Below, in pieces: positions 7,475 to 45,900 of a stretch of DNA of 64,000 nt. The stretch comes from Ectocarpus siliculosus (taxonomy: Eukaryota; Sar; Phaeophyceae; Ectocarpales; Ectocarpaceae): contig FN649747.1 in NCBI GenBank assembly GCA_000310025.1, forward strand, positions 1,647,452-1,711,451. Reading direction: 5' to 3'. Each line of letters opens with the position of its first letter. Within the stretch, counting starts at the first letter, position 1. The notes beneath the pieces are model-generated. The model was not told the DNA's origin. It was given only the letters and a program-made list of their open reading frames with translations, and made no database searches. The position numbers were made by a program, and so were the translations under genes.

Positions 7475-10400
7475 CTACACTGAAGTTCCACGACCAAATA
7501 CGTTGAAACCTACGAACTTCCACGTCGGAAGTACACTCGCCCTTTTCGTGCTTGAAACGCGCCTGAATCTCGAACACGATGGACTACGCAAGACAAGCGA
7601 TCGCCTCACCTTCCGAGCATCGCTTTCGCCTCTGCCTCCGGAATCGGTTCGTCGACAGCAGTACCCGCGCTGCCACTGGTAGCACCATCCGCTGCCCATC
7701 GCAGGTGGGCGTCCGGCCAGTGCTGCGATCTCAACAGCCCCCTCTCCCAGCATAGAAGCAGAACTTCCGGAGCCGTCAGATTCAGTTTCGACCCTTCCTC
7801 CTGCCCGGAAATGCGTGCTTTTGCTTCGTCGTAAAACTGCTTTCTGAGAGCCAGATCGTCGTTGCTGCGACGCGAGGACATCGTGAGCAGCAGCAACAAC
7901 GACAAGAAGTCGAGCAACAAGGGGAGTCACCGTTCAGGGCCCAGGCTACAGCGATTATCGGACGGTGTCCTGGGTCAAGCGCACCTGGCGACAAGCCCAT
8001 CGACCCCTCATTCGCCCTTAGGGTCATTTCTTCTTGTTTGGCTACGACGAACGCACACCTAGCATCTGCTCCTTCAACGTGACGAGGCTTGCCAACTGGG
8101 GTTGGCCTCTCTCTTGTGCGGGACACCCATAGCATTCTTGGGAGCCCTGCGATAGCGGTTCCAGAGGGGCCACACAACCAACACACAACATGCGCGTGGT
8201 TTCAAGACCAACGGGCCCATAAACGCCGATTTCGCGAGTTTCTTTGGAAACTAAAAATAGCAAGGCCGCCGACTGTTCCACCGGTGGTAGGTGTACGGGT
8301 AACGAAGTTCAACAGCAACATCCTGGTACCTGATCGATGTGGCTTCAGTGGTAAGCCAGGACACCAGCGATGACTTGGGAGCAAATCTGGCGGTTGCCCT
8401 TTTGAATGGCGGCACGGTGTTGCAAGACTTTATTAGTTGCAAAAGGTGCTGCCGTGGCAACCTGTCCAAGCTGCCTTCCTTCCAGAACCACCTTGAAGGA
8501 GGAAAACACGTTCACACAGGTGGGTGAGGTACTCGGGGGGTAATTAAAGCCGGAGCAGAGAAGGCCTTGGTAGCCTTCGCCAAGGACAGATTCCTCGTGA
8601 TGCATGCAGAAGGAAGATGGAGGTCGCGCGCATGCGCAGGACGACAAAGCTGCCCAGCCCCAAGGGGCGGCTTGTTCGCTTATATTGTCACTCCCTGCCC
8701 ATGGTGCCATCATCGCCATGAGAATACTGTAGCCCACGTCATGCACAGCCACCCAACACCCCTCCGATGACTGAAACCCCAAAGAGAGGCGCAACAAATA
8801 CAATGGGATAATCTCCTCGTTCCTGCATCATTGGTGACAACGACCGTCCTGCTACGTGCAACGGACAACCCAAGCCGCAGCATACATCACACCACGGCCC
8901 GCGCAACTCTCTGCTGCGATCACTGTCGTTGTGTACGGGGTGCGATCGGTCACAGCAACCAACTCACTTGGCCGAAAACTGCAGCTGTCCTGGGCTGCTG
9001 TTGGGCCGAGGAGACGACGCCATCATTGCCAGGTGCTGCAAAAGCTTTGGGAAAGATGAGACTTCCTGCTTCTTGGCATCCTGCGGGAAGCGCCCCACGA
9101 AAAGCGACAGCAAGAGAGTAGCAGGCGTTCTGAGAGGAGGGTGGCTGTGCTGCGATAGGCTTGGCGGTCCCGGCGTGGGCTATGAAAACGGGCTTCCGTC
9201 GATGCACCCTTTCGACAACAAGCGCATTGAGAACAAGTTGTGTTGTGGCGACCATCGACGTTGCTGATATCATCAGGACAAGCGCTCTCGTGTCTATCAT
9301 TGTCCTTCCCAGATATCCCTTTATCTTGGTTCTGCCAATTCATGTCTCCGAAGGATTTTCCTGGGCAAATGCAAGCACCAGGGACTGCTTTTTTTAGGAC
9401 AACACCAGGCGGAAGTACGGAGTAGCAGAAATACGCCTTCAACATCCTGCAGCACCCGGTTATGGACTTGGCACCACTTCGTCTCCACGTGAACTTTACA
9501 CGTCGCAGCAACAAAATTGTTGTCGTGTACCACCTGACGCTGCAGAGCAGGTTATGCAGCAAACTTTTGCAGCTCTGGGACCCTGCCGTGTTGCGCGTTA
9601 GCAAGGTGCCTCTCCCCCCCCTACATACATACCTCAAGCATGAACCGAAGTCTCTGCGGCGAGGTCCAAAACTGCGGAGGGAGCATCGTCTTGGGGAAGA
9701 TGTATCCGAGTGCAGGCGCCAGGTAGCCCGCGATGGGTAACGAGAACACAGTCAGGACAGGCAAGGCCTTCGCAAGGTCTCGCCCGACCTGTTGCAAACG
9801 AGACCAACACCGGTGGTTATACAAAAAGTGGGCACGTGACAAGCACGGCTAGTAGACTTATCAAACACAACATCAGCGGTACAAGGTGCTTGTGCTGCAG
9901 TGGGGGGCGCAGACGTTGCACTCTCGTTAATGTTCGTGTCTATTCGTCTGGAGGGCTGGAGAACTGTGTAGAAAGGTATATATGGCAAAGTCACGAGGGG
10001 GGAGAAACACCAACGCACTACGGTTTACAATGCATCCAGCAGCAGCACCTGTCAATCCCTGTGACGTCAGCTGGAGCGTGAGACTTCAGCCGAAGAGGGT
10101 GCGAACGCTAAACTTGCAGCACACACAGGTACGTGACTAGGATATTCTCCTCCCCACGCGGATAGGGAACTAAGGCAATACCGTGGCAACTGAGTACCTT
10201 CCGTGCGGTGTATGTGCTACGTTTCAAAAGCACCAAGGGTTTCGGAGCCCTACACTCGCACTGCTGTGTTGTGCATTGCACCACGTGTCGCCTTGCTCTC
10301 CCTGTGAAGTTACTGTATGAGACTGAAAGCACGGAATAAACCACACACAACGTACGGTTCCATAACAGAAGAACGCACTCTCCAGGAGGAACAGGTTCCG

Positions 10401-11263
10401 TTGCGTCTTTCTCTCCCGTCCGGTGATGAAAGCCGAGAGCCATGAACGTGCCTAACTTTGAACCTACCATTTGGGGGTGGTTGGAGAGCCCTCAGAAGCT
10501 CAGAGGCGCCCATCACCCGTACAGTCCCGAGAATCGACAGGGCGGCGCACATATGCATATGCACTGCTGTCACAAACGGATTGGTTCGAGTCGCACCCCT
10601 ATAGAGAGGGGGGGGGGGGGCTCTTGCGTTGAGGCATGCCACTGGCCTGCTTCCGTTCGTGTTCATCACACCCAACGGCCGTGTGTCGGTGCACAGAAGT
10701 ACAGCAGTATTGTAGGTCTGCCTCACCTGACGTAGCTGCCGGTTCTCCTGAAAAGTGAGTACCTGGCCGGCTCTTTTCTTTGCCTTAGTCTGCCTCGACC
10801 CCTTGAAGTCAAGCCAAAGCACCTTGGTTCCTTTCGTGAACTGAGCGATGAGCTCCTTGACACTTCGCCTCACGCTCTTCTTGTCCGCTGCGACCAACTT
10901 CCTGTTGCTATTGCTGTTGCTGTTGCGGTTGCTGTTGCGGTTGCTGCCAGTGCTGCTGGTGCCGCTGGTGCCGCTCGTAGGGCTCTCGGCCGGAGAATCT
11001 GTCCGTCTGTGCGTTTCCTTGGCCAGCTTGTCGTCGCTAGGGCTCGTGGTTCTGTTCAAAGCGCCCGACTCTACTGAACCACTAGCACTGCTGTGGTCTG
11101 GCCGGTTGTTGTGCAAGCCGTGAGCCCGGGCGGCAAATGTCGGCAGGCATCGTCGTCTGCTGCTGGCGAGAACGTACACGAGGATGATTTTCCCGTTGCG
11201 GACGACGTGTCTCACTTGAAGCATTTCAGCTGGCACTGCCGCCGCAGACCCCCACACAACCAA
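7475..11263 (-). CDS. LETM1-domain protein, probably mitochondrial inner membrane
   Basis: Exon A (11263-10727) has a basic N-terminus, a low-complexity Asn/Ser/Arg run, then VKELIAQF...LWLDFK...LTFQENRQLRQ, the start of the LETM1 ribosome-binding-like domain. Exon B (9788-9633, 52 codons, phase 0 at both ends) continues with VGRDLAKALPVLTVF and GYIFPKTMLPPQF, which matches the family's hydrophobic segment ending in P-x-MLPxxF. A C-terminal exon (7864-7610) has NLTAPEVLLLCWERGL, the helical motif near the end of LETM1 domains, and may splice to a last exon 7562-7475. One or more exons between 9.6 and 7.9 kb remain unresolved; 8469-8290 is a candidate. The family acts in mitochondrial ion homeostasis and ribosome association. 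No EF-hand is seen. The start codon and targeting peptide are uncertain. Confidence 0.72.
10905..10960. repeat. Trinucleotide/hexanucleotide repeat encoding Asn/Ser/Arg
   Basis: On the plus strand TTGCTGTTGC and TTGCGGTTGC units alternate. On the coding (minus) strand of the LETM1 gene this gives a run of Asn-Arg and Asn-Ser dipeptides between the N-terminus and the conserved domain, so it is a tolerated in-frame microsatellite. Confidence 0.75.
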
Positions 11264-11510
11264 GGAGCTTATGCAAGGTATATCGGGGTATCAGCAGCTT
11301 GTGGTTTCGACGCCTACACGCGCTTTGCACGTTGTACGCACGTTGCGTGCGCTGCGCACTGTGCGTCTCCGTTACCGGCTGCGCGGGGCACGCTGTTGGT
11401 ACACAGGTACACACAAAATTTGATTTGTGTCATCTGGGTGCCCCCTCAGTTGCGCCAACAAGACAGGCAACAGCAGAAGTAGAGTGGCGTGCTTTCGACC
11501 AGCAGGACCG
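11264..11510. promoter_or_regulatory. Probable shared promoter between divergent LETM1-like and TSPOON-like genes
   Basis: The first recognised exon of the LETM1-domain gene ends its open frame at 11263 (minus strand), and the TSPOON-like start codon is at 11511 (plus strand), so about 250 bp separate the two. No other gene fits in between. No TATA box was identified. The bidirectional-promoter role is inferred from spacing only and would shift if the LETM1 gene has a further 5' exon. Confidence 0.4.
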
Positions 11511-13060
11511 ATGAACAGCGTGCTCATCTGCAACCCGGACGGGAAGCTTCTCCTGTCGAGGTATTTCGAGGCACAGAGTCATGGATCAGAGTGCGCTTTC
11601 GAACCCTCCTCAGGCGGTGAACACACGGCGGCGGGTTCGTTGAGAGATACCGCCAAGGGTCGAAGCTCAACCCTTTCGGAAGTGCTGGGGCAGACGAGGC
11701 ATCTCTGGACGAAGGGCACGTCAGAGTGCCCTCAGGTCGCCCGGGCTAAGGTGTGGATCGTGAATCAGTTGGGACGAACCTGCTGTGTTGGAGTAGCCTA
11801 CTCAGAGATACACACGCGATCATGCCTTGAATAGAGCCAGCCCGAACAGCGGTTCAACATCCGCAACCTGCGACGGCAAGGGTGCCCACTGTCTATGGCC
11901 ACCGTACAAATATAAGAGGGTGGCTCCGTGGACAGCCGCATTCTTGCTTCCTTCCTCGTCCCAGCATTGATACCATAGCAATATAACCAATGTTTTGTTC
12001 CAGGTTTTTCGTTTCGTCCTCGCCAGCCCACCCACAACTCCGTACACCAGTACAGAGCCGGAAAAAAGTAGACTACATCATTCATTGCGCTGCTCAAACA
12101 CGCCACACACGGGACGGCAATGCTTGTGGGTGAATTGCGCATGGCAGGGAGGGCTGATCATTGTGTTTGGAGCAGTAGAAGATCTCCTCCTGTTCCTGTG
12201 CGGCTCTGGGGAATGTGACGAGCTTACTTTGGCTGACATGCTGGCAACGCTTGCGAAGGTCATTGTGGCCTTGTGCAGACAGGGCGGCAAACACCAGAGG
12301 GCCACGGAAACGGTGGGTACTGCAACAACCTGTTCCCCATTTGGCAAGAGCTGAACGTCGGGTTGCACATGGGGCAGCGAGAGCATCGTGTAATGTGTCA
12401 AAGCGGGGGCCCTATCTCACGTTTACTCACAAAGTAGTGCATACACAAGTTTAGTGTTTGCTGCACGATTCTGTGACGCTTTTCAGCGATGGGCACGTGT
12501 GTCTTGCACAAGTATCTCACGATGATCATGGGGGCAAACGTGGAGCGACACCTCGCGGTGAAAACATACCAGTTCAATAGTGCGATTTTCAGTACACAAC
12601 CAAAAGTGCGGCTCTACAGTAGTAGTGCATATGCACCTGTAGGGTTTACCGCGATCGAGCGCAGCTCAATGTGCTAGTATATTTTGGGTGTGTTGACTTT
12701 TTGTGCTGACTCGGTCGTAAAAATCGCAAGCCCTTCGGGCTTACCAAATGTCTATGTACTGTACGCCCCCCATGTTGCTTCCTCCAGCTAGCTCGTTTCC
12801 ACTGAACTCAACGTTGTGCCTCACTCGCTTGCATTGCCGTGTCCGCAATGACAACACGCGACGGTACGACTGATCACGAGCAGGCTTTCCTGTCGAGCAA
12901 CGGCACGAGCAGCATCTACAGCAAGGCCTGCCTCGTCATCGACGAAATGATTCCCGGGGGTATCCTGGAATCCCTAGACTCTGACGCCATCTTGAGTTCT
13001 ATCAAGCTGCAAAAACCCACCTCAGCAGCACCGGTTGCCGGCTCGAAAAAGGGGCGATGA
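11511..13060 (+). CDS. TSPOON: TSPOON/LOLITA-like small subunit of the TSET/TPLATE adaptor complex
   Basis: Three exons with consistent phase-0 junctions, 11511-11750, 12148-12312 and 12884-13060, give 193 residues. The product opens with MNSVLICNPDGKLLLSRYF, the first strand of a longin fold. It continues with LLLFLCGSGECDELTLADML and ends with CLVIDEMIPGGILES...KLQKP. The order D-EL-L-A followed by C-L-x-DE-hydrophobic-GGILE resembles plant LOLITA (D-ELAL, then CLCLDE...G-LE, and RLKPP at the end) more than AP sigma or COPI zeta chains. TSET complexes act in endocytosis at the plasma membrane. An extra Ser/Gly/His-rich stretch of about 35 residues follows the first strand. Sigma-AP or zeta-COP remain possible alternatives. 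Confidence 0.66.
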
Positions 13061-13069
13061 GACATCGTC

Positions 13070-14270
13070 TGGAGATTCCCCCGCGTTTACTTCCGTCAAC
13101 TGGAGCCTAGCTTACGAAGCCGGCTACAGTCAACTTGACGCCGTAGGCAAGGTTACATCCAAGGCTGGTATTCTCGTCATAGCTGGGCAAGTTTGTTTGA
13201 AGTACATATCCTGTACAGTAGTAGCAGTGTGGTTGGTTTGCTAAGGCCTGGGGTAGCAGTTCTTGGGCTGCCAGCTGGGCTGCCGTTCTTTCTCAAGTTT
13301 ACATGCGTCTCTTGGAACAGGCGCGTGATGTGCGTGTTGGTATTGGCTTTCCATCGGGCTAAGGGAGGATAAAGAGTTGGTGGCGTGGATTGTGCACAAC
13401 CCATCGAAAGGGATAAGGGTCCGCCTACGGGGAACTGAAAAGCGGGTACACTTCCTTACTCCACGCAAAGATTCGTGGTCTATTCCGCAACAATAAGGCT
13501 ATGGAGCAGTACATATTTGCACCTCTACTGTAGATGTCAAGGAGCGCAATCAATCGTAAACATAGCACAGCCTGCAGCCCTAACATTGTGACCTGATCGT
13601 ATGGCACAACAGCGAACAAGAACAACACGCCTACTGCCTAGAGCAAAGAGGGTTGCACGTGACCGTTGGACCAACAAAACCTGGTTTGTTTTCACTCTGT
13701 AGGCCCGTCCCTGCCCCGAACCTTGGAGTTGCCACTGGCCTCCTTGATGACAAATGGCATGTAGATACCATGAGGGACACACATTAAAACTGAAATGAAT
13801 GATGCATCAATTCATCATCTGTTGTTTCCCCGCTGGCACACACCTTGTTGCGGACGGTGACTCAAAATCTCGTCAGCGGTATTCAGCACAATGCTCTATT
13901 TACTGCGACCGCGTAGTTTTCCCGACCGCATCGCAGTGCGAAGTCGTGACCTCAACATCTCACGTTTTTAGACTAGCCAAGCAACATGGTCACGAGCTGG
14001 GGTAGAAACGACCAGCCCGTACACGAGCAGAAACAGGTCGAGCGAGTGCGCCTGAAGAAAACAAAGTGGCACTACAGCACGCGTGTATGTAAATCCAACA
14101 AGAGCCATTGTGGAAAAGAGGGAATCGTCCTCGACAGACATTGGGGAGATTGTACCTTTATGAAGGTGGTCTCCACACAAGACAAGAAATATTCACATAC
14201 GCAGACACACACAACACGCTAAAATTCACCGACTCCACAACAAAAGGGGCCACGCTGTGAAAACAAGAAC
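13070..14270. other. Spacer between convergent gene ends
   Basis: This lies between the 3' end of the TSPOON-like gene (plus) and the stop codon of the p24 gene (minus). No credible exon was found; part of it is expected to be 3' UTR of both genes, which is often long in brown algae. Confidence 0.4.
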
Positions 14271-14279
14271 GAAGGCAGG

Positions 14280-17200
14280 CTAGAGAATGCGCTTGGTCTC
14301 GAAGAAGCGGCGAATGTAAGACAGCTGGGTCCAGGACACCCACACCAGCACAGCGGCTTCAACGAACGTACACCACATGAGCCTTGAGCTGGTTTGCTTC
14401 ACGTCTGGTCCGTGGCGTGCATCGCAGCAGCGGAAGGAAAGAGGGTAGCATTAAGACGCGCGTCAAGCGCAAGCGGGCAACAAGGGTGGCATTGCCAAGA
14501 CAACAGAGGGAAGGTCAGTGGATGCTGCGCTAGGAAAAGCAATGGGAACCTCTCAATGTCCCCTTTTGATAGCATGCTCTGGTAGGAGCGTGAAAGAGCA
14601 CAGAGCCACGTCATGCGACAAGCCTGCTTGCGAATGTCTTCCATACTCATCCATATATTCACCACTCAGGAAAACACTGGAAACATTAAGGCCGCGTGAA
14701 TCGAACGGGCCAGGCTCATGCCACCGCACCCACGTGTAGAGCATGCGCGACTATTTCGCAACTACGCCATGGTACATGGAGCGCAACCACCAGGAACAAT
14801 GTACCAGTGAGTGCAAGGCAGATCGCCGACAGTCGGCACCATCACCCTCACTTTCACGGTGGTACTCCTCACGGCCTCGCATGTAGCTCTCGTGGTCGTT
14901 GAACACGGACAGAGTTTCCACGAGGATGTCTGCCTCTTCCGCGAGGAAACTAGCCATCACTGTTGGTGGACGCACGATTCGGACACGAAACAAGGCAGCG
15001 GTAACAGACGAGCACGGGGAAAAACGAAAACAGCGCACGAAAATCAACAACCGGTGCAAGAGTTTCTTCGAAGAGAGGACAGAGAGGCATGTTCAACGAA
15101 TTTATTGTTGCTAGAGCAATGGTAGTGCGTGTACACGAAATCGTATGCGTGCAAACAGGCAGACAGGTTTCGAGATTGGGGGAACTCTGGGCAGCGAACG
15201 TCCAGCCTTTGATTTGACCCCAAAAAACCTTGCGGCGACAATGACGGTGGTACACGAAAAGATGAAACTGGTGCATCACCTTTGTCTTCGACCGACACGT
15301 CCGCCATCGATTGCAGATCTTCCACATCTTTGCCCAGTCGAAGCCCAAACCCTGGAAGCAAGAGGATAACACGAAACGTCCAAGAATTGACAAGACAGAG
15401 CAGCATGACGGGGGCAAATATCATGCGTCCGATGTAGTGTAAAAAGCGGGCATACGTGATGTGCGAGATATTGATAAAAGCGTGAACAGCATCGTCAAAC
15501 GAGAACAATCGACAACAAACACAACCGGGTGAGTGCTCGACGTGACGGACGCCGTGGAGAGCATTCATCGCACCCTACCTACCGTGCAAGCGACAGCGTA
15601 CGTCGTTCATCCATGACACCGAAAATATGGCGCCGCCCAACCGGCCAGTTTCGTTCCAAGAGAAAGACGGCCAAGCGCTTTTTCTCGGCAGAAGTCGTCA
15701 CGGCACCACACCATCCCAGGAAAAAACGAACATGGCATCAACACGGTGACAGTACCGACCGGCAGTACGGGGAACGGCCGTGTTTTTCGTTTACCGCTTA
15801 CCGCTTCCCCCAACAAGTGTGGAAGTGCATATAGGAGCGAACAGAGAAACAATCAACTTTTTGCCCCGTGATGTACCAACCCACACGATGGTTTCATGAA
15901 CTCATCATTTCATGTGGAGGCCCAGGTTCCAATTCTCCAAACCTCCCTAGACTTCTCGGAGCTTCAATGCGACAAAAGGCATGAACATTTAGTGCTTCGG
16001 CACGAGCCATACTTCCAAGAGCGCTGCGGTCCTTCGTACTCGAGGACCCGACATGGAATACGCAAGGGCATCATGTCTGTCACCATGAAACTCAAGGGAA
16101 AAACGGCAACAGGTATTACAGCAAGCTCGACAGAGTGCCAGGAAGTGTACTGTACGTTCCCGCACCTAACAAAACGTAAATGTCGGGTCCAGGCCCAACC
16201 TCTTTGTTGGTCGTCACCGTCTAGCACAGTTAATATGAAGAGTGCAGCGTAGAGATCCACTGCTGAGCTGTGCATCGTACCCCTAAATGCCTTAATGTTG
16301 GTGAAAACTTGAGGCTCTCCTTCTCGACGGAAACATGCATGTCTCTGTAGCAAGCTCACCGAAAGTCTTGTAACCCGACTCCTTGGCGTACCAGGAGGGC
16401 ATGTCGTCTGACAGACCGTCGAGGAGCTCCTCGTCATCCTGCCAAACGCCGCGTGGTGCACATTCCAATCGTCCGTGAGTGTGCGCACCACGCCGCCGGG
16501 AGAAAAAAGGCCGGCAGTCGGCAGGACAGATATTAGATGCAAGGCAAAGCCGCAGGTGGGCGGACAACAGCGCAGGCGAGAGCGCCAGGGGGGTTAAAGT
16601 CACGCGGAAGGCTAGCAAGACAAGGAGCACATTCGTCGCTCTGCAGCACCTGCACGAGGCCTGACCGCGCCAGCACTGCCATGTGGTGTAGTCGGTATAG
16701 ATGGCTGGTAGCGCCCGTCGAAATCTCCAGGCACCAATGGACATCAAGGCAAACCGTCACCAAACGCTCACAGGGAACCTTGCCAGCAGCAGCGTTCATG
16801 ATTCCGCGCTCAGGCGAGGCATCCTCGACCATGCGTCCCGGGATGTATTTACTTGGTCGTGGGCGCCTGCCTACCTTCGTCAACGACCGTCAGAATAAAT
16901 TCTTACCCTATAAAAGAAGGAGTCGTCGTCTTCATCTTCCCGCTGTTGCGCCAGCGCCTTCTTCTTCTTCTCTTGGCGCAGGGCGTTCAGGCCGACGAAA
17001 CTAATATGGCATACAAGAGCGGGAACAAGGCGGGTGGTGATCAAACTATGTGCACTACGCATGACCACCGGCGCTTCACCACCGGAGCAACAGTGTTCAG
17101 AATGCAGCAAAAATGCGGCACCCACTCCCGGTATCGCACAGGCTTCGAGGTTAGGGAGGTTTGAACTATTCGCAGCAGCGCTCCTCCAACGACCTCAGGA

Positions 17201-20200
17201 GTGCAGGTGTGTGTGGCTATAACTGCTGGAGCGTTCACCAGCAAACCCCCGTATAACAGCCGCTACATATCCGACACGAAACACTATGATTCGGAAGATA
17301 GCAGGAACGACAAAAACAAAATCCCAAACTCTTTCAGCAGCACTGCTGTTATCCGGCCCCAGCACGGGTGGTCACCAGCTATGTCGAGACACCGATACAA
17401 CACCAACCAGGTAACGGGAGGCGAAGCGAGTAAGAAGACCACTTCTACGAGGAGACCCTAGGCAGGACAGCAGCCGGATAGCCGCAAAAACAAATACTTG
17501 GGTAGGTATTAGAAAATACACGTACACAGAAAGACTACCTGTGAAACCACGGCAGTCCAAGGGGATGTGTTGAAGTCTTAACAGTGCATGGAAGAAAATC
17601 AGGTATGCACGGCTAGATCATAGGTTTGAAAGTGGTGCAGTACCTGTTCACTTCCGGCACGAGTTTGTTGCGTAGCGATTTGATGCGTTCCTCGCCCCCG
17701 TTGATGAAGCAAAGCTCGTAGTCCCCGTCGTTCGTGGCATCTACCCTGAAGTAATCTTCGCCCAGGTCTGAGTGGGCGGAGGCAACAAAGAGGATATCAC
17801 ACTCTTCCGTTAGAGCAGTGCACGCGCTCGGGTGAAAGAAGAAGAGCAGCTGCTTGAACGAAAAGAGAGAAGGCGCTGCTGACACCGAAGACAAAATCGG
17901 CACGTGTGGACCACAGGAGGTACCAGTCGTGCCATCAACAACAAGTCTTGATCTCGAAATACAGCGACAGTGAGAGCAAGTAGTGTCGAGCAGCAATAGT
18001 TACTTGCTTTTTATTCTGTTGGTTGTCAGTCCCATCGCTTGTCTCCACCAGCCTAGCCTCCGACTACAGCCGCCGTCCTTGGCTCCGCCTGAGCCTGCCT
18101 CCCCACTAACCCCCCGTGGCTTTCCCGCTGTGGTACACCCCCCTTCTGCTCGTGTGGCCAACAGGGCCAAGCAGTTATCTTTGCTCGGTAAAAAAATAAC
18201 TCAACATCCAGCCAGCTCTTTCAAAACGGAGCATGAGGACGAGGAATAGAGCCCACGCACAAACCATCCCACAAGTTCAATGTTGAAACCACAAGGACGA
18301 CGCGTGAATCCGCACTAACAAACGCCCATATGCTGTGTAGGGTGCATTTAACCCCCGAGGCGATGCACCTACCTTCCTTCCTGTAGAGCAGTTTGTTATC
18401 GCCCCTCTTTTGAAGAATAACCATGGTGTTCTTCACAGGGTAGCCCAGGACCTGATATGCAGCGTGTACGCACGAAAACCGCAGACCGACCGGCAGAACG
18501 CAAAAGTAAAGTGTCACAATCAAGAGCCGAATTATCCCACTGACGAGAAACAGCAGTTCAGCGGCTGTGCCTGGGACACGATGTCCCTTTAAGAAGCCTT
18601 TGCAAAGCCAGTCTGTACGGCCGTTCTACGGAATCTCATTTCGGATCGTCGTCGGCGTGCGAACATCAATTCTTTGCTTGCCCAACGAACTCTGTACGAT
18701 ATCCACCGCGCGGTAGCCTGCGTATCCCGGGTACCAGGAGGATGCGAGAGATGGCACCCCGCCTAGACCGACTTTCAAAGCTCGATTGCTCCCAAAACAA
18801 GTGGGTGCGAAAATAGCCCGATAAGTCCACGGAAAGCCCTTGACGAAATGTTTCCAAAGCCACCATTGTTGGTGTTTTCACAAGCTTGGTTGGGGAGCAA
18901 TCGAGCTTTGAGCTTCGAAAATCGGTCTAGCGGGGGTGCCATCTCTCGCTTCCTTACGGTACTTTGAACGGTGGGGCGTGTGTGCCACATCTACGGGTCA
19001 AGAGTTCTTCCCGGGACACGTTCCACTTTCGCCCGACGCCCTGCACTGCACCGATGCCAGTCCTACCAAAGGTGAGACACGTGCAAGCTTATGAATTGTA
19101 CAAGTGGCTGCAGTGTGTGAAAGAGGCGATCTCACACAGCTGAGGATAAACGCGAAGGGTAGACGCGAAGGATAGAAAAGTACAACACACCCGAAACGTA
19201 CTTCCGTGCGCGAGCGCGCTCCTGACAGATTTCGGCATGCAAGGTGTATCATGATGTGGCTTGAGCATCGTCCGGGGCAAGGGCTCGTGGTGTTCGCCGG
19301 TCATTTAGTTGTTGCTTTCGTTGGAAATGTGACCGTGCCAACGCCAACACAGTCGCAAGCGGGCTCATGTCCGTAGCTTATCAGCGAACCCATATTGACA
19401 GCTGCTGTGAAAATACCAACACTCCTGTCTCTAAAAGAGCAAAACATTATTCAATATCAGTAAACTACGGCGGGATACCGCTCACGCACAGCTTGGAATA
19501 AACAGCATCGCGGCTGAATGCGCTGCAGTGTATCAACGTGGGGCAGGCGAGCGTGACGGTTGGTGTCTACTGTAGAACTTCTGAGGTGTGAGGAATACCC
19601 GCGTACACAGGCTACATATGCATTTTTTTTTCTTCTTCACTTAAATCAGCGCTCACAGAACTAGTTGCCGTTTACTCCAACGCGTGGTCACACAGAAGGG
19701 CTCCTCTCTACCCTCCCCTCCTGCGGTACCTTGCCTGCGATTTTTAATGCGAGAAGAGTTCAGCACTCTCTTCCCTCTGTGTACACACCAACTAGCGCTA
19801 TCCACAATATAGGGCAGGAGCGGAAGCGAGAGGAAAACTCACTTTGCAAGAAAAGCTCACTCACGCCGGGATTCGAACCACTGACCTAACCTTCAGAAAG
19901 TTTCGAGGATACCAACTAGACCACCGGGGCGACCGAATGGAATGGCGGCCTCTCGTTGTTCGACGGGAGCGTGACACCGCCCACGGGAAACTACATATAT
20001 ATTTTGAACTAACAGCAACTTGTTGCGTTTATATTTCGTGTCGTGTAAAAAGTAGAAAGCCAATCGCGTTGTCCGCTTCCAAAACAGTATCGCAGCCGAG
20101 GAACATGTCCGAATCCCACCACAAGGTGGGGAGCAGGGAGCAGAATTCTCGATTGAGTTCCCCCGCAAAAATGCCATCTCCCGACTAAACCAATCGAGGA

Positions 20201-20698
20201 TGCAACACTCCGGTCGACGGTTCGCCGCATTTCGTCCCAATTTGTCTTTCGTTGAACCGCTGCTGCTGCTGGCTGCCGTCTGTTTCGCTCGCGTGTTGAG
20301 CTCCAAATGTGCGAGGAGTTCCAAGCTTGTTCTATGAACCGGTCGGTGTCTGTGCGTCTATGTAGAGTCGGGCATGCGGGGGATACGTCCTGCTGCGACG
20401 GATTTCAAGGGGCAGTCTATCGCCAAAGGTGTTTGGGAAATATCTTCTTCCTAACCGAAAGGCGCTGCTTGGTAACCGAAGTGCCTCATACCTCGAAGTT
20501 GGCGTTAATGGTGTTGCCCTGCTTGGCAACGACGATAGCACAGGCGATGCTCCCGTCGTCCACATCCATCGTCATCGAATTGACGCTGGTCACCAGCAGA
20601 GCAACCAAGCACACGGAAGTAACTCGCAGCGGCCCATGCCATCTTGCAACCCGTGCAGCCCCTGGCCCTCCTCTTCGTCCCATCATGGCGCAGCACAC
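14280..20698 (-). CDS. p24/TMED-family (emp24/GOLD) cargo receptor
   Basis: Five exons, 20698-20492, 18451-18373, 17803-17644, 14949-14852 and 14404-14280, have splice sites and phases that all agree and give 222 residues, the usual p24 length. Exon 1 has a signal peptide (LRVTSVCLVALLVTSVNS) and the start of the GOLD domain (DGSIAC...NANFE). Exons 2 and 3 hold its middle and end (MVILQKRGDNKLLYRK; DYFRVDATNDGDYELCFING). Exon 4 is the coiled coil, ending SYMRGREEYHRE. Exon 5 is SSRLMW, a transmembrane helix (FVEAAVLVWVSWTQLSYI) and a cytosolic tail RRFFETKRIL with the diphenylalanine COP-binding signal and basic residues. p24 proteins cycle between ER and Golgi as cargo adaptors for COPI and COPII. 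The gene is head to head with DCAF13. Intron 3 is 2.7 kb and may hold other sequence. Confidence 0.9.
14950..17643 (-). other. Large p24 intron with exon-like segments
   Basis: Within this 2.7-kb intron several minus-strand stretches look exon-like and have usable splice signals. One near 17.0-16.9 kb ends EDEDDDSFFYR before GTAAGA, and one near 16.47-16.38 kb reads DDEELLDGLSDDMPSWYAKE between CAG and GTGAGC. Hydrophobic segments lie near 17.3, 16.0 and 15.5 kb. They do not belong in the p24 reading frame, whose flanking exons join perfectly without them. They could be a nested gene, a decayed gene, or chance. No product is assigned. Confidence 0.25.
18731..18962. mobile_element. MITE copy 2 (about 232 bp)
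   Basis: The ends are GTACC...GCGAGAGATGGCACCCC and the corresponding inverted sequence. Further in, both arms carry a GACCGA-TTTC core followed by AAAGCTCGATTGCTCCC. The core and length match the MITE at 5033-5265, but the outer ends and the middle differ. It lies in the first intron of the p24 gene (between 20492 and 18451). No coding content. Confidence 0.68.
19623..19934 (-). repeat. SINE with tRNA-like head (copy B)
   Basis: Read on the minus strand it begins GTCGCCCCGGTGGTCTAG (an A-box-like word), has GGTTCGAATCC (B box) about 45 bases on, then a body of about 230 bases, and ends in an A-rich tail. It is colinear with the copy at 48355-48669 over nearly its whole length. It lies in intron 1 of the p24 gene. 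Confidence 0.85.
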
Positions 20699-20925
20699 AC
20701 AAGCTCTAGCCTATGTTGTCTCTGCTGCTGGAGGCTGGTGGTTCCGTCGAGGAGCCATGCGGAGGAGGGGTCCCCAGAATCGTTTATGGTGGTACGTGGG
20801 ATACTAGGCCGCGGACCCCCTAGCCTTCGCCCCTCTTGTCGATTGTCGACCCTCCCTGCTCCTCCCACCCAGAGCAAAGGCAGAAGGAAGCAGGCCCTGA
20901 GCGGACAAGAGGAAGAGGGATAACC
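20699..20925. promoter_or_regulatory. Probable bidirectional promoter of p24 and DCAF13
   Basis: Only 227 bp separate the p24 start codon (20698, minus) from the DCAF13 start codon (20926, plus), and both genes are well supported, so promoter and 5' UTR elements of both must lie here or overlap the coding starts. No TATA box was seen. This is inferred from geometry. Confidence 0.65.
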
Positions 20926-23844
20926 ATGAAGGTTAAAACTATTAGCCGCGTGGAGGAGTCCTACACTCGTGACTGCAAGGGTGACCGGCTTCAAGTGCAC
21001 CGAAACCGCGACCCCTCCCTGCATCCTTTTGAAAAGGTATGGTTACCCCGCAACTTTGGTAGACCGGGTGGGGGTGCGTTGTGCGTTGGCTGTTGGCTGA
21101 TCAAGTCGGGACTAGCAAGTTCTTGCGTACAAGTATCATGTTTCCCGTTTGTGGCGGTTCCGTGGACCGATCTCTACGTTGATCGTACAGACTGCAAGGG
21201 CCGAGAGAGTTGTAAATCTTGTCAGCACGTCAGCACCACATGATTGCGCGAAAATTAGAGTGAAACGCGTTGACAGTCTCGCCTGTTTGGAGTCCTTTCC
21301 CCCATACCCGCCCAATCACAACCTAGACCTGTCCGCGCATCACAATTCTACCCTATCCAACGCGACTCCAACCTATTTCCTTTGAAGTGAATCAAACACT
21401 CCCCAACAACGCCTTGCACCTTGGCACATGTTTCTGCCTACTACGCGAACCCACGTAGAAGCAGCACCTAACCAAGGGTACACCTTACTGGCACGCGTGT
21501 AGGTTTGCAGGTTCAGGTTTTAGGTTAGATTCGAGGGGGTTATGGCCGATTCACCTTGTGAGTATACGTGCTTTAGAAACACTGCTGTAATCCTGTGACG
21601 AGGACAATCGCGACGAGCAATAAACTTCCCATTCTGCTCATCCATCCGATCTATGCCGTTGACTATTTCGCTGTTTCTCTTTCGCATCGTCAACGCCCTC
21701 TTTCTTCAAGGCAAGAGAGTACACCCGAGCATTACAGTCAGTAAAGCTTGACAAGATGTTTGCGAAGCCTCTGGTTGGGGCGTTGGATGGGCATGGAGAC
21801 GGCGTGTTCTGCTCCGCCTCAAGCAGGAGAAATCTTGTGCAGTTCTTGTCAGGTGTGGTTGTGTGTGTGTGCCCCTGCAATCGCGCTTGGTGCATGCACA
21901 CGGCGAGACGTGTAGGTGTGAAGACGATTCTTGGACGGCATGCCGAAAGTCTAAATACGCTTTGTCTGAGCTGTGCTCCGGAGTCAGCCTACGACAACGG
22001 TTTCGATGGGCTTGGTGGGTGACAAGAGAGGCAAACCGCTACTCCAACCCGGCGCGGTAGATGTGGGCCCACAGCACCGTGGCCGTTTTATCCTTGATCG
22101 ATGTTTCCTGTGATGCGGGTTATACGAAATTGGAGACATCTGAAACGAGGGGCGTGCCGGTTTGGTGTTTGCCGGATGGCTTGGCATGCCCCCGCCCCGC
22201 CATTTGAATACAAAACGTCAATAACAGAACAGTTTGCTAGGACATATGCCACGAGCCGCTGAGCTAGATATACACAGCACGAACGGCTGATGCTATCTTC
22301 GTGTTTCTGCTGCCGTGTGGGCAATGTGTCGGTGCCTCGCTCTGCGGTTTCATTTGTACGGCATCCAACACGATTGTCAATGTGTTGGTGGAGCAGGCGC
22401 CTGTGACGGGGAGATCCGACTGTGGGACCTGTCGCGGCGCAGCTGCGTGTGGCGGGCGGTTGGACACCAGGGTTTCGTTCGAGGTCTGTCGGTCACCCCG
22501 GACGGAGCCAGCTTCCTGTCCGCGGGGGACGACGGGATGGTCAAGCAGTGGGAGCTCGGCGTGGCATCTGATCTCTCGGAGGTCAGGAGGAAAATCAGTT
22601 TTGTTGACGCAGAAGTTGCTGCCTATGCTGTTGTTGTCATACAAGCGGTCGTATCGAAAAGAACCTGCGAGTGTTGCGTTTAAGGGAGGCCATCGTATGG
22701 CGGAGGTCTCCGTTTCTGTCGAGAGCAAGATGGCATATGTTCGTTGCTACACTGCTGCTGCGCGGTCGTTGCCTGAAGACGTGGCGAGGGAGAAAGGCGT
22801 GGTGATTCGTGGTGGTAGCGACAGCAAGTGTTCGCTGGTACAATATTACTGTACCTGTTTTTGTCCTTGTGTCAACAACGATGCGATGTTCACAATCGTA
22901 ATGCTTGTCAAACCATGCTGCAATGCCGCCCCTTGGCGTGCAGACGCCGGAACCCACGGCGACTTGGATGGGCAAGTCGGGCGGCTTTAAGTCCCTCGAC
23001 CACCACTGGACGGACGCGAAGTTCGCCACGGCTGGAGACTCGGTAGACCTTTGGGACCACAGCAGAGCCGAACCAACGCTCTCGTACCAGTGGGGTGCGG
23101 ACAGCAACAACTGCGTGAGGTGCGTCATCATTGGGACAAGCCCGTCTGTGCCCTCCTCCTATAGTGTCACGGCACCGCACAAGAGACGCAGGAGTGTGTA
23201 CTGTAGGCTACATCGTGCACGACTTGCCGCAGCAACCAGCATTTGACCGCGCTGTCGTCGACGTCGACCGTACGCTCGCCACGCGCCGTCCTCCGTCCGT
23301 CGCTGCCTTGTCGCCCTGGCCTGTCCCAGGTTTAACCCCGCTGAGAGATGTTTGCTTGCGAGCACTGGCTCCAGCCGAGAAGTGTGCCTCTACGATACGA
23401 GAGCGACGGTGCCTATGCGCAAGGTAATTGTCAGTGCGGGGCAAACACGCCGTCAGCAATATCTGTCGGTTGAATCCCACTCCCCCCCGCCGAGATTCCC
23501 AAAATAGCGGTACCGAGGTAAAAAGCGCTGCCCAGCTGTTACCTGACCACGCGCTGGACGCTATTTTGCATGTCCAGCGAAATAACTCCTACCTGGTTCA
23601 CGTCTGCACTCATGTAGACGTCGATCACCCGCACTTGCACCCTTTTAAAGGTGTGTTATATATGTGCAGGTCTGTTTCATCTGACTGCTGTGTGCTGTGT
23701 ATTTGATTGTGCTTGAATTGTTCGGCAATGCTGTGTAGAGGGCGCGATACCACCACCAGAGAGGATCTGACCCTGGTACTCTCGCGTATTTGTTTCAAAT
23801 CTGTCCTATACCTTGGCCTAACGCTTTGTTTCTCTCTTCTCTCT

Positions 23845-28443: not shown

Positions 28444-31018
28444 TCACAAAAACTCAATGACGCCCTTCATCAACGCGGGGTCGGCATGCACGCAGAGCTG
28501 CGCGACCAGCCACCCCTGAGAAGGGACGGCCGATGCGACCGACCCGCCAGCTAGGGAACGCCTAAAGCGGCGCTTGGTGTCGCCATGGTCGCGTTCGAGC
28601 CGCTCCCTCCCTGCCAACGCACCCCCGTCGGATGCGCCATCAGCAAGCGCGAGGACAGCGTTAGCCCTCTTGCGGAGAGTCTCGCACACCAGCACCATGC
28701 CCCGCTTCCTCTGCCACCTCTGCGCGCTCGTCAGGGCGAGCCTCACCCGCTCCCCTTCCGCCAGCTTCTTCTCGAACGCCTCCCTGGCGAGCTTGGCCTT
28801 GCCGCTCATCGTCTCGGGCCCGCCCTGGGTGGCGGGGGCGGGGCGAGCGCTGACGGGGATGACGAGGGTACCCACCATGTCCAGCGGCGTGGCGCCGCGC
28901 TTGTTCCTCCTCGAAGGGTCGGCGCCGCGCAGGAGGAGCTCCTCCACGCAGCTCAGCCGCGAGAACCCGGCCGCGAGGTGGAGCGGGGTGGTGCCCGCGG
29001 GGGTGGACGGCGAGTCCACGGCCTCGCCGGCGTCCAGGAGGGCCCTCAGGGCAGTCAAGCGCCCGCACCTTGCCGCCACGTGCAAGGGAGTAAAGCCCTG
29101 CGACAATAGTAGAGGCGAAAAAAACACAGCGTAGGGGGGGGGGGGGCGGGGTGGCCTTCGTCTAGTGGGGGCCGGGGTAAGGGAACTTTTTTCCTGAACA
29201 CGTACATGGGGGGGGGGGGCCTTTCGTACCACAAAATTTCTACTTTTCAAAAAAAAAAAGGCATCCCCTGGTGGGGCCCAAAGCGCCGTCGTGGGAAATT
29301 TCTTCATTTGCGTACCCCCAAAAACGTTTTTTAAAAAAAAACCCCGGGCATGTTTTCCTTTCAACCCCCCCAACCCCCAACCCCTTTTGATTGGTATCGG
29401 GGTTTTACCTCCCCCCCCGGTGGTTTTGAAGCTTGTGTNNNNNNNNNNNNNNNNNNNNNNNNNNNNNNNNNNNNNNNNNNNNNNNNNNNNNNNNNNNNNN
29501 NNNNNNNNNNNNNNNNNNNNNNNNNNNNNNNNNNNNNNNNNNNNNNNNNNNNNNNNNNNNNNNNNNNNNNNNNNNNNNNNNNNNNNNNGGGGGGGGGGGG
29601 GGGGGGGGGGAGGAGCGTCAAAAGACAAAAGGCGCAAAGTAAAACTCCCATGCTCCACCAAGTGCGCCACCCCGCGCATCGGTGTTTGTACGTGGTGCGG
29701 TTACGAATGGTTCTACTTTGTTTGCTTCCTGTTCGGGCATATACGAGCTGGACTTCAAAGACAAATGTGTCGGATAAACGGGTGATTGACGAAGATTTTT
29801 TTCCGGGACATTGGGGGAGGGGGGGGGGCAAACACGTGCATGCATGCCTAATCCCATTGCTCGTCGCGTAATGGCGTTGTTGTGGTGGCCCCACGGCCGG
29901 CTAATACAACCGCTCGCTCCGACATCTTACCGCGTTGTGGAGTGCCGTCGTGCCGAGGTCGGACGCCTTGTTGGGGTCCGCACCGCACGTGAGCAGGGAG
30001 GACACCAACTCCGACTTTCCCGACAAGGCCGCCATGTGCAGCGGGCACCGAGACCTGTGGTCTCTCGCGTGGGAGTCCGCGCCGGCGAGAAGCAGCACCT
30101 TCGCCGCGTCCACCTGAGACGATTGCAACACCCACCAATCCCGGGGACATGCTACGTTAGATCACTTCAACAGACTGCTGTAGTACATTGCTGCCTGCGG
30201 TCCTTGGCCTCAACAAATGCCACACGGAGAGACATGAATGTGTTTGGGTATTTATTTGTCCGACATGTCATGTTGACGGATGCTCTACCCGAGCACGGCG
30301 GCGTGACAAAAAAGCACGCTGAGCGCCACCTACTCCTACGACCATCCAGAGCACACCCACGTGGAATCCCCAACACCATTTTGTCCTTGCAAGTGGACAG
30401 CAGGAGTCTTACTGAAAGTCAATCAAAGGTGTCAAGAATTTACTCACATACAGTAGTAGGCACAACGCTGCCAGCCAAGAATACACGCACCTCTCCAGTT
30501 GAACATGCCAAGTGCAGAGGGGTCATCCCGCGGTCGTTTCTTGTCCGGAGGTCGGTGTTGGACTCCAGCAACGCCCGGGCCACCTCCCAGTTGTCCTGGA
30601 CGGGAGTGTTGAGCGCCTTGGACACGCCCAGCAGCGTCAGACGCGCGCCGTCCAGCGGCGGCGTCGACGTCCTGCGGTGGTGCTTGCCCGTGTAGACGCT
30701 GGCCTCGGCCGACGGTCGTGCCGTCGACGATGCCGGCGCCGACTGCTGTCGCAACAAGACCGGTGGCCGCACATCTCTGCTACTGCCGTGTGCGTAGCAG
30801 GTGGTGTTTCCCCCGCAAGGCCTCCCGCGGCAGGATGCCGCCGCCGCCGTTGTTGCGTCGACGAAGTCTATCGGGGATCGAGCGCCGGGAGTGCAAAACT
30901 CTAGAATCACGTCGCCAACCCCGCATGTTGACGTCGACGACCTCTCGCAAGAGGACCGCTGGGAGAACCCGTCGAAGCCGATGGTGGTGCTCTGCTGCTT
31001 GTTCCTGGGTGGCACCAT
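28444..31018 (-). CDS. Ankyrin-repeat protein with charged C-terminal region; an exon is probably lost in the gap
   Basis: Three exons are visible: 31018 (or 31099) to 30491, 30113-29931, and 29097-28444, all with phase-0 junctions. Ankyrin units include NDRGMTPLHLACSTGE, DHRSRCPLHMAALSGKSEL, LGTTALHNA, GFTPLHVAARCGRLTALRAL and GTTPLHLAAGFSRLSCVEEL with GADPSRRNKRGATPLDM. The last exon then continues into a Lys/Arg/Glu-rich helical region to the stop at 28444. At the exon 2/3 junction LHNA is followed directly by GFTPLH, leaving an ankyrin unit about 24 residues short. An exon is therefore expected in the 29.1-29.9 kb interval, which holds the N run. Ankyrin repeats mediate protein contacts; the specific role is unknown. 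The first Met is uncertain. Confidence 0.8.
29439..29588. other. Assembly gap (150 N) with low-quality flanks
   Basis: A block of 150 N. The roughly 300 bases to its left are full of doubled and expanded homopolymers (for example TTTTTTAAAAAAAAACCCC) and the right side begins with over 20 G, the look of poor-quality read ends. Reading frames that cross it are meaningless. Confidence 0.95.
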
Positions 31019-31104
31019 GCTTGTGTGCTGCGTATTCAAGAGGCTGTGCTGTAGAATGCAGTAAAACGGAAAGCGGACAAGGCAGGAAGAGAGCACCAAC
31101 TCAG

Positions 31105-34100
31105 TCCAGACCCGCGGGGGATTGGCATGAGAAATTGCTGCGTGTGTGTCGATGAATCTTATCGGCCCTGCGCATCAACCGCCGTGGGTTTGGCTTGGGA
31201 GTGCGTGGGAAGCGAGGTAGAGAGATAGGAGAGAGCAACGTGGCCACTGGTACAACCATCCTCACCAACGCAAGACAGACAGGACGCGCGTCATGTTGCC
31301 ACGAACACGTTTCAAACGTGGCATCTACAGCGTTCAAGTCTACTTGGGTAGTAGACTGCACTACACTCACGTTCTTTCCCGACTACATTCCAGCAGTAAT
31401 CTGTATGCAGCTATTTGTACGTGTGCCTAGAAGAGACGTGCTGTACATGCATAGATTCGAAGCTGATGCGGACGGTAAAGGCCCATGACTTGCTGTGCTG
31501 TCTCTCACCCATATTGCATGCCACAAAATCCACAGCAGTAACGGACAGGTTCGACAAAAATGCGGATGTATGTACAGCAGTTGTACGTACGTGACATCAA
31601 ATCAAGAGTCGTCGTATGTCACCGTGTATGTGGGGTAATAGCATTAGTGGTGGCGGCCCGGCGCCAAAACAGCGATGCTCATATAGATACTGGGACCTTT
31701 GCACCGAGCAACCTCCGCTCTTAACGATTGTGTTTGCATGTACGACGTGGTGAATTCATCGAGCAAGTTTTACACGAGCCCGATCCTCTGATCCAAGGTT
31801 TGACCTCCTTTTGCGGACTCAGCAGAAGCAATAGTTGAAGTCATCCAGCAAAAGGGGTTCCTTGCAGAGAGAACGGAGGACAAAGGGAGACAAAGAAACC
31901 GCAAGAGGCACAGCTTCTACGCAGTATAGAGAGTACGAACGTACGGCACGCTACCTCATCGAAGGAGAAAAGGCCGACTGAACCTCTTGAGTGCGGAAGA
32001 AAAGTATCGACGGTCGGCGGGGTGACCGATCGATGTCTGCTGCAGCAGCGACAGAGTGAGAGAGAGAGAGAGCTTCACTAGAAGCTGAGTGTGCTGCTGT
32101 GGTATAGGAATTCCTCTTGATCTGAGCAGGCAGCACGATCCCCTTGCTCACCTTGAACTGCTGTTCAGCGTCTCCCTAAAAACCGCTGCTGCTTGCGTTC
32201 TCTGTTGGCTCCGGTGTGATGCGACAGTACCGAGCGGACCAGTATGGGAGAGAGAGCCTATAACCAAGTGTAAGTGTGCAACAGCAGTAGCCGCGAGAGT
32301 CGTTGTCAATCCGTGCTCGGTTCGGCCGTTGGGTAGAGACGAGAGTGGTAGTGTGTTCGAGAAGGAGGGTTTGGGGTCAGTACCGTTGCAGCCAAAATGA
32401 TGAGAAGCTTGGGTTGTCGGGGGACACGCCTACCTTCTTGGAATCCAGCTTTTCCCAGACAAAATGATTTACAACTTGGATGTTTGTCTTTTACCAAGTT
32501 CTGCTTTTGGTCGGAACAACGGTTCAAAGTCCTCCCGCGTTAGGCAACTAGAGAGCCAGAAAAGAGGCAATGCGGCTCATCCGACGAACGCGTTGACTGG
32601 AAAAATGTATACATACCGAGCCAGAAAAAGATACGCCCCGCGCGCACATCGATGCCAATTCTGATACGCCAAAGAGGGTACAACCTTCTATTGTCAGATG
32701 AATCTTCATCTTATCTGTATGTAGATGAAAATTCCAGAAAAATACTCATGGCACCTCGTATTAACTTCGCTTGTCGGGAAAGTCGCTCTCCTCTTATTGA
32801 CCGATATATATGTCCGCCTTGCATACCTACATACGTACATCCGTTCGGTTCCTTCTGGTCGGAATTCTATGTGGACTCTCGACTCTTCGACAACCGTCAA
32901 CGTCACTGATGGAGCTATGGGGGAGCCAACCTCGTAGATAGAGGTCGTAGAGGGAAATGGGAGAGATCAATCAACTGATGTCTGAGTGTGCGACGGCAGC
33001 GACACGGCATGGCGATGCTCAGCTGTACGGGGCCCGAATTTTTCCTCCGTTCGAAAAAGTTGACGGGAAAGTTTTTTTTGCGCCCGCGCCCCGGAATTTT
33101 TTTACAGGTACCGCCAGGTCCACTTCCATTATTATTATGATGAATCGATGATGAATAACGGGCTAAATAAAATAAAGCTAAAAGATCCGCGCGCGCGCAC
33201 ACTCCGCCACGGAGTTGAGGCTGGCTGTTGATAGCGTTTGATGAGCAAGCAGAGATGGTGTAGGTTGCTGTACCTGCTCGCGTCTCTCTCGTCTACGTAG
33301 CCAAGACCCTGCCGCAGTTTGTTGCTGGTGTCATCTTGTTGCCGTACGGTGCTGCCCTATCCTATTTGATTGACATTTGTAGGATTTGTCGGGGTTTCCG
33401 ACCGAATCCTGACCAGCCGCCTTCCTCGCACCTTGGCATGAACGGGCATGTGCACACGACAAACGACGCGTATGTTATGAGTATCCTAGGATAACTCCGT
33501 TGGTAGCATGGTATCTGGGTATCGTGACAAGGCGCCAAGCACGCGGGAGTATCCTTCTGCTGGCGCTATGGCTGGAACAGCAGTAGTCGTCGAAAAAGAG
33601 AGGCGTATCCGGCTGGAGGCCAGCAATAGAAGAAGGTGAGGGGTGGCGTTGTCTGGTTGGTGCAACCCTCCAGGACACCGGCCGTAGCAGTCTCCTCTCT
33701 ACTACACAACGAAATAGTAAATGTTGTACGGGCTCTCGGAAGTGCAACCCCGGGGGGCTATCAGGCACAACCAATCCTGTAGAGAGTTGTACTGTGGAAA
33801 TTGAATCATCAAGTGAGAGCGAAGAGGCGTAAGTACAGTAGAACTCAGTGTCTTACCACCAACAGGTCGTAGACGAAGCTGGCCGCATCTTCCCTTCTTT
33901 CAGCAGTACTGCTCTAGTACTACAGCAGTATATATGTAGAACAGGGGACAATCTGATCGAAGATGGCGTTCTCACAGGGCACGCAGAAAACAGCCGTAGA
34001 CAATAATAATATTGTCAGGCAAGAGCGCACCCCCACATCTAGCTAGATCTATCTACATATAGATCTGCCCGGAAACGTAGCGGGCAACGATCCATAGTCC

Positions 34101-42900: not shown

Positions 42901-45900
42901 CATTCCCATACGCACAATAGTAGGCCTTCACCTGCGGTCGCCTCGTGGTGTAACCTCTTACTCCCCATAGGGCATCCCAAGACGGTGGCGGCCTGCTCAC
43001 AAGGGCGGGTGGGCGATCTGACGAGATTGGTGCCCCGGCCATCCCAGCGACAGCTCGATTTGCTCCTGGTACGGAAGTCATCACCCCCCCAAAAGTACGG
43101 TCTCCGGACAAGGGCCCCGAAAATACCAAGATCCGAAATCGAGATCATGTACTTAACGACCAGAATTTTTCGACCATGGCGGCGCTCACAGTAGAAACTC
43201 ATTCGGGGCGATTCACTGCGACATCGGGCGACGCGCCCCCTCCACGTCGAGACAGGCCACTGGTTAAGGTCGTGCCAGAGGAGACAACTGAGCCTATAAC
43301 GAGAAGGCTACCAAATCACGCAACGGAAAGGGTCGCTATTCTACGTCCAGAACGCGCCGTACAGAGTCCACCGACAGTACCTTCAAGAAAATTGACGACC
43401 AAGCCGACCGGTGATGGCAAGTGCAAGCTGCGAGAACCCCCGCATACTTCCAGGCTGAGGGCTCCGGGTTGGGGCCGGGAAGCAGTGATAACCGCCATCC
43501 TACCGGCCAAAGTTACCCCGGGCATGGCGAAGGACGGTAGCTCCCCTGCTACCACCGCCAGTCACAATGGTGTTGCACCCACTGACCCCGCGGTACTCCC
43601 GTGGGATCTGCTGACGCCAGTTACCGAGGCTGCCACTGTGGACGAGCGTTCCGTAATCTCCCACGGAACTCATGGCACGACAAGAATGACACCGGCATCC
43701 TCCGTCACCTCAGGATGCAGGCCACCCCAAGGAGAGGCTTCAGGCGCGATACAAGGTAGAGTCAGCCGTCGATACCCTCATCGCCTGCAGGCTGATGCCA
43801 ACCGTTACGCGGTGGCAGCAGCACCCGTAGTCTGCGCGCTCGAGTCACCGGCAGAGACCAGCGGCTTCGGTGATGGCCGAAACCAGAACGGTAGCGAAAA
43901 GAGGGTGGTGTGGGGTAGCGGCACCGTCGCTAGCGGCGCCCATTCGGCGCCCGGGACGACCTCGGCAAGATCGAGAAGGCGAGACGCTCCTGCTGGTGGT
44001 GCACTTACGTCATCATCTGCGTACCGAGCTTCTCCTCTCTCTAGCACCGCCGACCGCGTAGGTACAGGGGGCTCCGTTTTCTCCAGCGCTAGCGGAGAGA
44101 CAAATCTCGGACGACAATTTGGTGGTGGCTACGTTGCGGCCATGGGTAGACGTGCGAGGTCGATGGCCAGGTGCGAGGCGGCGAGGCGATTGGCGGCGGC
44201 GATGGCAGCCGACAGGGGGAGGCCATCCACGCCGATATCCGAGCGGGCCCGATGGGGGAAGGGAAAGGAGAGCCAGGTGAAAGTGGAGCGGAGGAAGCTG
44301 CTGCAGCGGCGAGCGGAGTATGCCGAGGAACTCCAGAAAAAAGCGAAGGTGGCTCAAGGGGAGGTCGCTGTAGCGCGTGTTGCTCCTTGCTCAGCAAGCA
44401 CGGATGGATTGACCCCTCCGTTGATGTTTAGTGTTCCACTAGGCCATTTAGGTATAGAATGATCCAGTCTATGAAGTACAGGGGGGTGCAGATCATACGT
44501 TTGCAAGCTTGAGGTATGCTCTGGGCCCATTCACCTGCATAGGGAGCGTGTCTCCGTTGCTGCCGCCGGTTACATTGTACATGTGCCGAGCTTGAATGTT
44601 GCCGCTGAGAAGTACACGTGCCGGTGCGCCCGATTGTCAGTCGTCTTGGCAGAGCTCAATGTCTCGGACGAATGAATGTCAGCACCGGCGTTCGTGATAC
44701 GCGCGAAAACGTGCGAGGCAGTGTTGAAGTATCTCCTCGGGGCCACATGTGCATGTCCAATCTCGGCCGCTCTGTCCACCTCATAAACAGGAGGAAGCCA
44801 TGGAGCTCGCGCGAAGAAAGTGCGCAGCCGCTAACACCAGCACCATGCTGCCTGCAGATCCTCGACACGTCAGAGCAGGCGCAACCTCTGCTAGTTCCAC
44901 AGCCTTTCAAAAGGACAGTACTCCGTACGATGCTGATACATCAATGGGAGGTTGCCAAGGGAAAGTCCCAAGTGCGATCGAAGCGAACTTTACCCACGAC
45001 ACCACGCGCCCCGAAGCCATTGACAGCCGCCACAAGGACAAGCCCCCCTGCCTTGCTCCTGGCAGCAAGGCGAACTCACCAGTTTCTTCTCGCCGTTGTG
45101 ATGGGTTGCGTGTAGGAGTCGGGGGTGGCGACGGCGGCTTGCACAGACGGCAAAAGGCAAAAAGGCAAATCGCAAAGAGTACAACGCAGGAGGAAGAGGA
45201 GGAACGACTGACGGCGTCTATCGCTCGCCTGGACACCCTCTTGCGAGAGGGAGATGGCGAGGTCTCTGGCAGGGCTTCCGATGCACCCATGCCGGGAGGG
45301 AGCGGTGGAGTAACGCCGTCATCGAAAAGCGGCGGAAGGGTGGAGCGAAGACCAGTGCGCGCACCGGTAGGGGGAATCGCCAAGACAAGGGTGAGGAGAG
45401 GGGCTACGAAAGAGATCACTAGCTCGGCAGGGCCTGTGGTCAACGTTGAGCCGAAGGCGGGGTTGGTGTCCGTGGCGGCGGCGGTGCCCGTACATACGAC
45501 CGCTGTGGTTGATGCGGGTGCTGCGATCATGGCCAGTCCTGGCTTATTTCCGCCAATTTTCGGCCGAGTACCGGCGCACACGGGTGGTGGGAGAGAAATA
45601 GGACGCTATGAACCTCCCGATGCTGTACAACAAACCTCGAACGGCCCATCACGAGGAGTGGCGTATCGCGAGCCGGCCTCGCACTGTCCCATTGGCAGGG
45701 CAGCATCGCCACTGTCATACAGATATTGCGCTGACGATGAGCAACGGCGGGCAAAACGGGCCGATGGAGGCCCCGTAGATGCGGCACCGGGTCACTACTG
45801 CCAGGAGGGTAGGCGGCCGGCTGGTGCGGCGAGTCGCTGGGTGGGGGACGGCAACGACCACTACGATGCGCGTGCTCCGCCGCGATATCCGGACCAAAGG

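Follow-up and report, generated by a model that had tools for sequence, protein, structure and literature searches.

A divergent longin-type adaptor small-chain gene, candidate TSPOON, in the brown alga Ectocarpus siliculosus

In this study, we examined a stretch of 64,000 nucleotides from the genome of Ectocarpus siliculosus (contig FN649747.1, positions 1,647,452 to 1,711,451 of the forward strand; hereafter the window, with positions counted from its first letter) and closely analyzed a predicted gene for a small chain of an adaptor complex at 11511-13060 (+). The predicted gene consists of three exons (Table 1), which upon joining form a frame of 193 residues that is open throughout, starts with the ATG at 11511 and ends with a stop codon at 13058-13060. 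Both introns of this join are bounded by GT...AG, and two alternative acceptors of intron 2 are located at 12881 and 12926. Exon 1 sits within an open frame at 11424-11831, and a longin-like hairpin, MNSVLICNPDGKLLLSRYF, lies at the N terminus of the protein. The ATG, the three open pieces, the motifs and the stop at 13060 claimed in a first-pass annotation of this DNA are all present, and the joined product indeed has 193 residues. Splicing and expression of the three-exon gene as drawn here are predictions.

Table 1. Predicted structure of the small-chain gene (introns deduced from the sequence)
Feature	Position	Strand	Description
Exon 1	11511..11750	+	Start codon, first two longin strands, insertion, helix; donor AAG|GTGTGG
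Intron 1	11751..12147	+	Phase 0, GT...GGCAG, pyrimidine tract weak; predicted
Exon 2	12148..12312	+	Residues 81-135; strand-strand-helix block GGLIIVFGAVEDLLLFLCGSGECDELTLADML
Intron 2	12313..12883	+	Phase 0, ACG|GTGGGT ... GAGCAG; predicted
Exon 3	12884..13060	+	Small-chain signature CLVIDEMIPGGILESLDSDAILSSIKLQKP, short basic tail, stop codon

Profile scans indicated that the gene very probably encodes a real, divergent and fast-evolving longin-type adaptor small chain, a type of subunit found in vesicle coats. A combined sigma+zeta profile, made from seven chains of these two families, was compared with 1960 six-frame segments of the window, each at least 20 residues long. The segment with exon 3 came 1st (E 0.0059), that with exon 1 2nd (E 0.36) and that with exon 2 4th (E 7), although these ranks are not independent of the choice of segments, which the first-pass annotation had picked by eye for their small-chain look. 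A zeta-only profile placed exon 3 1st, exon 2 2nd and exon 1 4th; with a sigma-only profile, exon 3 was 1st and exon 1 3rd, and exon 2 lay outside the best six. The joined protein reached 23.2 bits on the sigma+zeta profile and 10.5 bits on the sigma profile, compared to 5.6 and 5.0 bits, respectively, for the top of 20,000 shuffles.

Among Pfam families, Clat_adaptor_s (PF01217) matched residues 147-178 only, with an E value of 0.0037 and 17.6 bits, which is below its cut-off of 22.5. Searched as single exons, exon 3 gave a match at E 0.2, and exons 1 and 2 gave no match up to E 1. The best matches in the PDB were four near-identical zeta-COP constructs (E 0.45-0.83), which aligned in two collinear pieces, namely, residues 3-21 (0.1 bits) and residues 75-174; the second piece, in which exon 2 falls, was aligned to zeta-COP 58-145. 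The protein has the characters of the superfamily (PF01217, sigma/zeta/TSPOON), being of the longin type with collinear strands and helices and a DE-x-x-x-GG signature. Because the pieces agree in order, in strand and in score, a small-chain gene is very likely. The adaptor small-chain identity given by the first-pass annotation is backed by the Pfam, PDB and sigma+zeta profile matches.

The splice sites drawn here, and with them the insertion in exon 1, are provisional. With the start and stop fixed, and with donors and acceptors drawn from four predefined ranges, 1204 stop-free GT/AG joins were obtained as alternative models. By the sigma+zeta profile, the 193-residue model ranked 535th (23.2 bits) and the acceptor-12926 model 152nd (26.6 bits), with 35.3 bits for the top model. 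The respective ranks were 277th and 29th on the zeta profile and 828th and 1040th on the sigma profile. The best-scoring models have a shorter exon 1 or a shorter exon 2/3 junction. Since a profile of sigma and zeta chains rewards removal of an insertion, the low rank of the 193-residue model does not disprove the insertion. In the alignment with sigma and zeta chains, the gap in exon 1 spans 28 residues (about residues 28-55), and a second insertion of 11 residues lies close to the junction of exons 2 and 3; each of the two could be genuine or could consist in part of intron. An insertion of about 35 residues after the first strand had been noted before: the alignment gap exists, but it is shorter than stated and depends on splicing.

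We compared the protein with the profiles of the individual small-chain families. An ordinary zeta was rejected, as the protein scored 18.4 bits on the zeta profile (24.5 bits with the alternative acceptor at 12926) versus 112-116 bits for held-out human and yeast zetas. The same applies to an ordinary AP sigma 1-4 (10.5 bits versus 140-175 bits for held-out sigmas, yeast AP-3 sigma included) and to a mu/delta longin (9.4 bits versus 37-128 bits for held-out members). The best of 3000 shuffles reached 6.5, 4.6 and 4.7 bits on the zeta, sigma and mu/delta profiles, respectively. Members of one family scored 2-49 bits on the profile of another: zetas and mus reached 18-48 bits on the sigma profile, all above the 10.5 bits of the protein studied here, and AP sigmas reached 18.9-32.7 bits on the zeta profile, so that a score of 18.4 reflects no more than between-family distance. 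The protein is at or beyond this distance from zeta, sigma and mu/delta. AP-5 sigma was also rejected, at -1.1 bits to a presumed human AP-5 sigma sequence; Pfam includes an AP-5 sigma family, and PF01217 was the sole family matched by the 193-residue protein.

The small TSET subunit TSPOON, known in plants as LOLITA, is the probable product of the gene, an assignment made by elimination and from the frequency of TSPOON in stramenopiles. Since the zeta, sigma, mu/delta and AP-5 sigma scores are poor, TSPOON remains among the small-chain families considered, and it is favored beforehand because it is common in stramenopiles. Like TSPOON, the protein is a small longin chain, and it scores as neither zeta nor sigma; the longin fold alone would not tell TSPOON from zeta. 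Its C terminus may resemble that of plant LOLITA. The first-pass annotation had judged the fit to LOLITA better than that to AP sigma or COPI zeta. By score the protein is indeed unlike either of them, which fits TSPOON, but it leans toward zeta, and trees joining it to sigma or zeta were not rejected.

The sole measurable affinity of the protein, in PDB matches, profile scores and trees, appears to lean to zeta. In a first tree of 13 rows, the protein was placed beside the zeta pair (human and yeast) at 84/62, unstarred, on an end branch of 2.75. Joining either zeta alone was not rejected (p-AU 0.194 and 0.198), and neither was grouping with sigma (p-AU 0.172). In a tree without ARCN1, the join to zeta was found at 80/79, unstarred. 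The acceptor-12926 protein adjoined human zeta within the pair (50/19), with all three together at 94/97, unstarred, and a placement outside the zeta pair was not rejected (p-AU 0.453). A clade with sigma was likewise not rejected in these two later trees (p-AU 0.202 and 0.15). TSPOON rows were absent from all trees, which therefore only show the least distant family among those offered and cannot decide membership.

These results have to be weighed for a very divergent zeta-COP or a zeta paralogue, acting in the COPI coat or in a derived version of it. The protein shares with COPI zeta (COPZ1/RET3) the order of strands and helices and the series L-x-V/I-V-Y/F ... DL ... GSS/GSG ... NEL/DEL ... 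DE-x-x-x-GG, and zeta gave the best PDB matches, the highest family score and the best tree positions, and positions within zeta were not rejected. However, identity to human zeta is only 24% in the small-chain alignment, the zeta score of the protein is matched by AP sigmas and lies far from that between human and yeast zeta, and zeta may simply be the nearest family offered to the trees. A weak further difference is that the protein ends 28 residues past GGILES, whereas human zeta, whose C terminus is 12 residues longer, ends 40 residues past GGVILES. On balance, we consider a divergent zeta unlikely.

Another small-chain longin, either a paralogue confined to the lineage or an AP sigma, sigma-5 among them, that evolves fast, would agree with a sigma score above all 20,000 shuffles and with the sigma clades that the trees did not reject. 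Also, the C-terminal Clat_adaptor_s signature of AP-1 to AP-4 sigma is present in the protein, although below threshold. With 15% identity to AP2S1 and 22% to AP3S1, and with not only the held-out sigmas but also zetas and mus scoring higher on the sigma profile, such an origin appears distinctly unlikely. We regard it as improbable that the gene encodes not TSPOON but a zeta-leaning small chain of a kind not yet on record, belonging to a lineage-specific coat, with the extra loop after the first hairpin as a candidate new binding site. Least probable of all is that the joined frame is not expressed as a small chain, being either a degenerate copy or a set of open frames that join by chance: the weak acceptors, the 1204 stop-free alternative joins and the Pfam match under the gathering score would suit it, but three collinear, stop-free pieces on one strand that rank 1st, 2nd and 4th of 1960, and a joined score attained by 0 of 20,000 shuffles, argue against it.

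For the TSPOON assignment, the distribution of TSET in stramenopiles is of relevance. The first-pass annotation implied that TSET is rare, which is contradicted by the text of a 2025 survey (PMC12167817) that describes the complex as widespread in stramenopiles, including the Phaeophyte-Xanthophyte group. According to this text, all six TSET components occur in 3 of 13 stramenopile groups, Phaeophytes and Xanthophytes (treated as one group) among them, and TSPOON was detected in 259 of 330 AP1-positive stramenopile libraries, with each of the stramenopile groups represented. A complete six-subunit set in a single stramenopile library is given there for Blastocystis only. Ectocarpus, Saccharina and Undaria are not named in the main text of the survey, and we found no paper that ties a TSET/TPLATE adaptor to Ectocarpus or TPLATE to a brown alga. 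As TSET has already been reported from the Phaeophyte-Xanthophyte group, the small-chain gene is probably a typical example of something already known. Should it prove to be TSPOON, a single gene model would be added, and the known distribution of TSET would stay unchanged. The model would still be useful for annotation, and a divergent small chain that scores below the curated Pfam cut-off (17.6 versus 22.5 bits) is easily missed.

As TSPOON, the protein would be the small longin subunit of TSET. The survey text pairs TSAUCER with TSPOON (PMC12167817); Hirst et al. (PMC4031984) report, with moderate support, that TSPOON lies outside the COPI and adaptin clades, and they describe recruitment of TSET to the plasma membrane and a role in membrane turnover. 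By analogy with the family, the E. siliculosus protein would be expected to pack on TSAUCER, the large subunit, and to help to hold the TSET core together. In known TSET, this core reaches the plasma membrane by recruitment from the cytosol and acts in membrane turnover. For the protein described here, both the packing against TSAUCER and the recruitment to the plasma membrane are predictions carried over from the family.

Searches with the protein in viral and genome collections revealed no relative, and neither did a search of the viral collection with an alignment; TSPOON was not among the PDB sequence matches. The DNA form of the motif GSGE[CY]DEL occurred in 4 stretches of the viral and 28 stretches of the genome collection. 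When all 32 loci were searched by tblastn, the best match had E 0.093 and covered 19 residues, and profiles gave best E values of 1.6 (sigma+zeta), 1.2 (zeta) and 0.29 (the protein as query). One locus (L003) showed a weak match of 93 residues (E 6.9), and no small-chain continuation was present in the three frames read. Within the window, Pfam revealed none of the TSET partner subunits in + 1-23999 and - 8001-22999 (all frames) or in ten long frames.

The surroundings of the small-chain gene contain several further coding candidates. Just 5' of it, on the opposite strand, an open frame of 326 residues at 10313-11290 (-) has no Pfam match and includes a CTGTTG hexamer repeat at 10902-10946. 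Also upstream, a LETM1_RBD match at 9639-9803 (-) (E 1.6e-09) is part of a LETM1-like gene. About 1.2 kb downstream, 14298-14411 (-) matches the C-terminal end of the EMP24_GP25L profile (E 4.8e-07) and represents an exon of a p24 cargo receptor, likewise a trafficking protein. The positions given for the LETM1_RBD and EMP24_GP25L matches were calculated from residue numbers. The adjacent long open frames at 42954-44459 (+) and 44728-46215 (+) comprise 502 and 496 residues, respectively; the former has a sub-threshold DUF1204 match (E 0.064), and the latter has no Pfam match. WD40-repeat matches are located at 22396-22575 (+) (best E 1.5e-06, below cut-offs), and ankyrin-repeat open frames were found at 28447-29700 (-) and 30443-31174 (-), with 418 and 244 residues, respectively.
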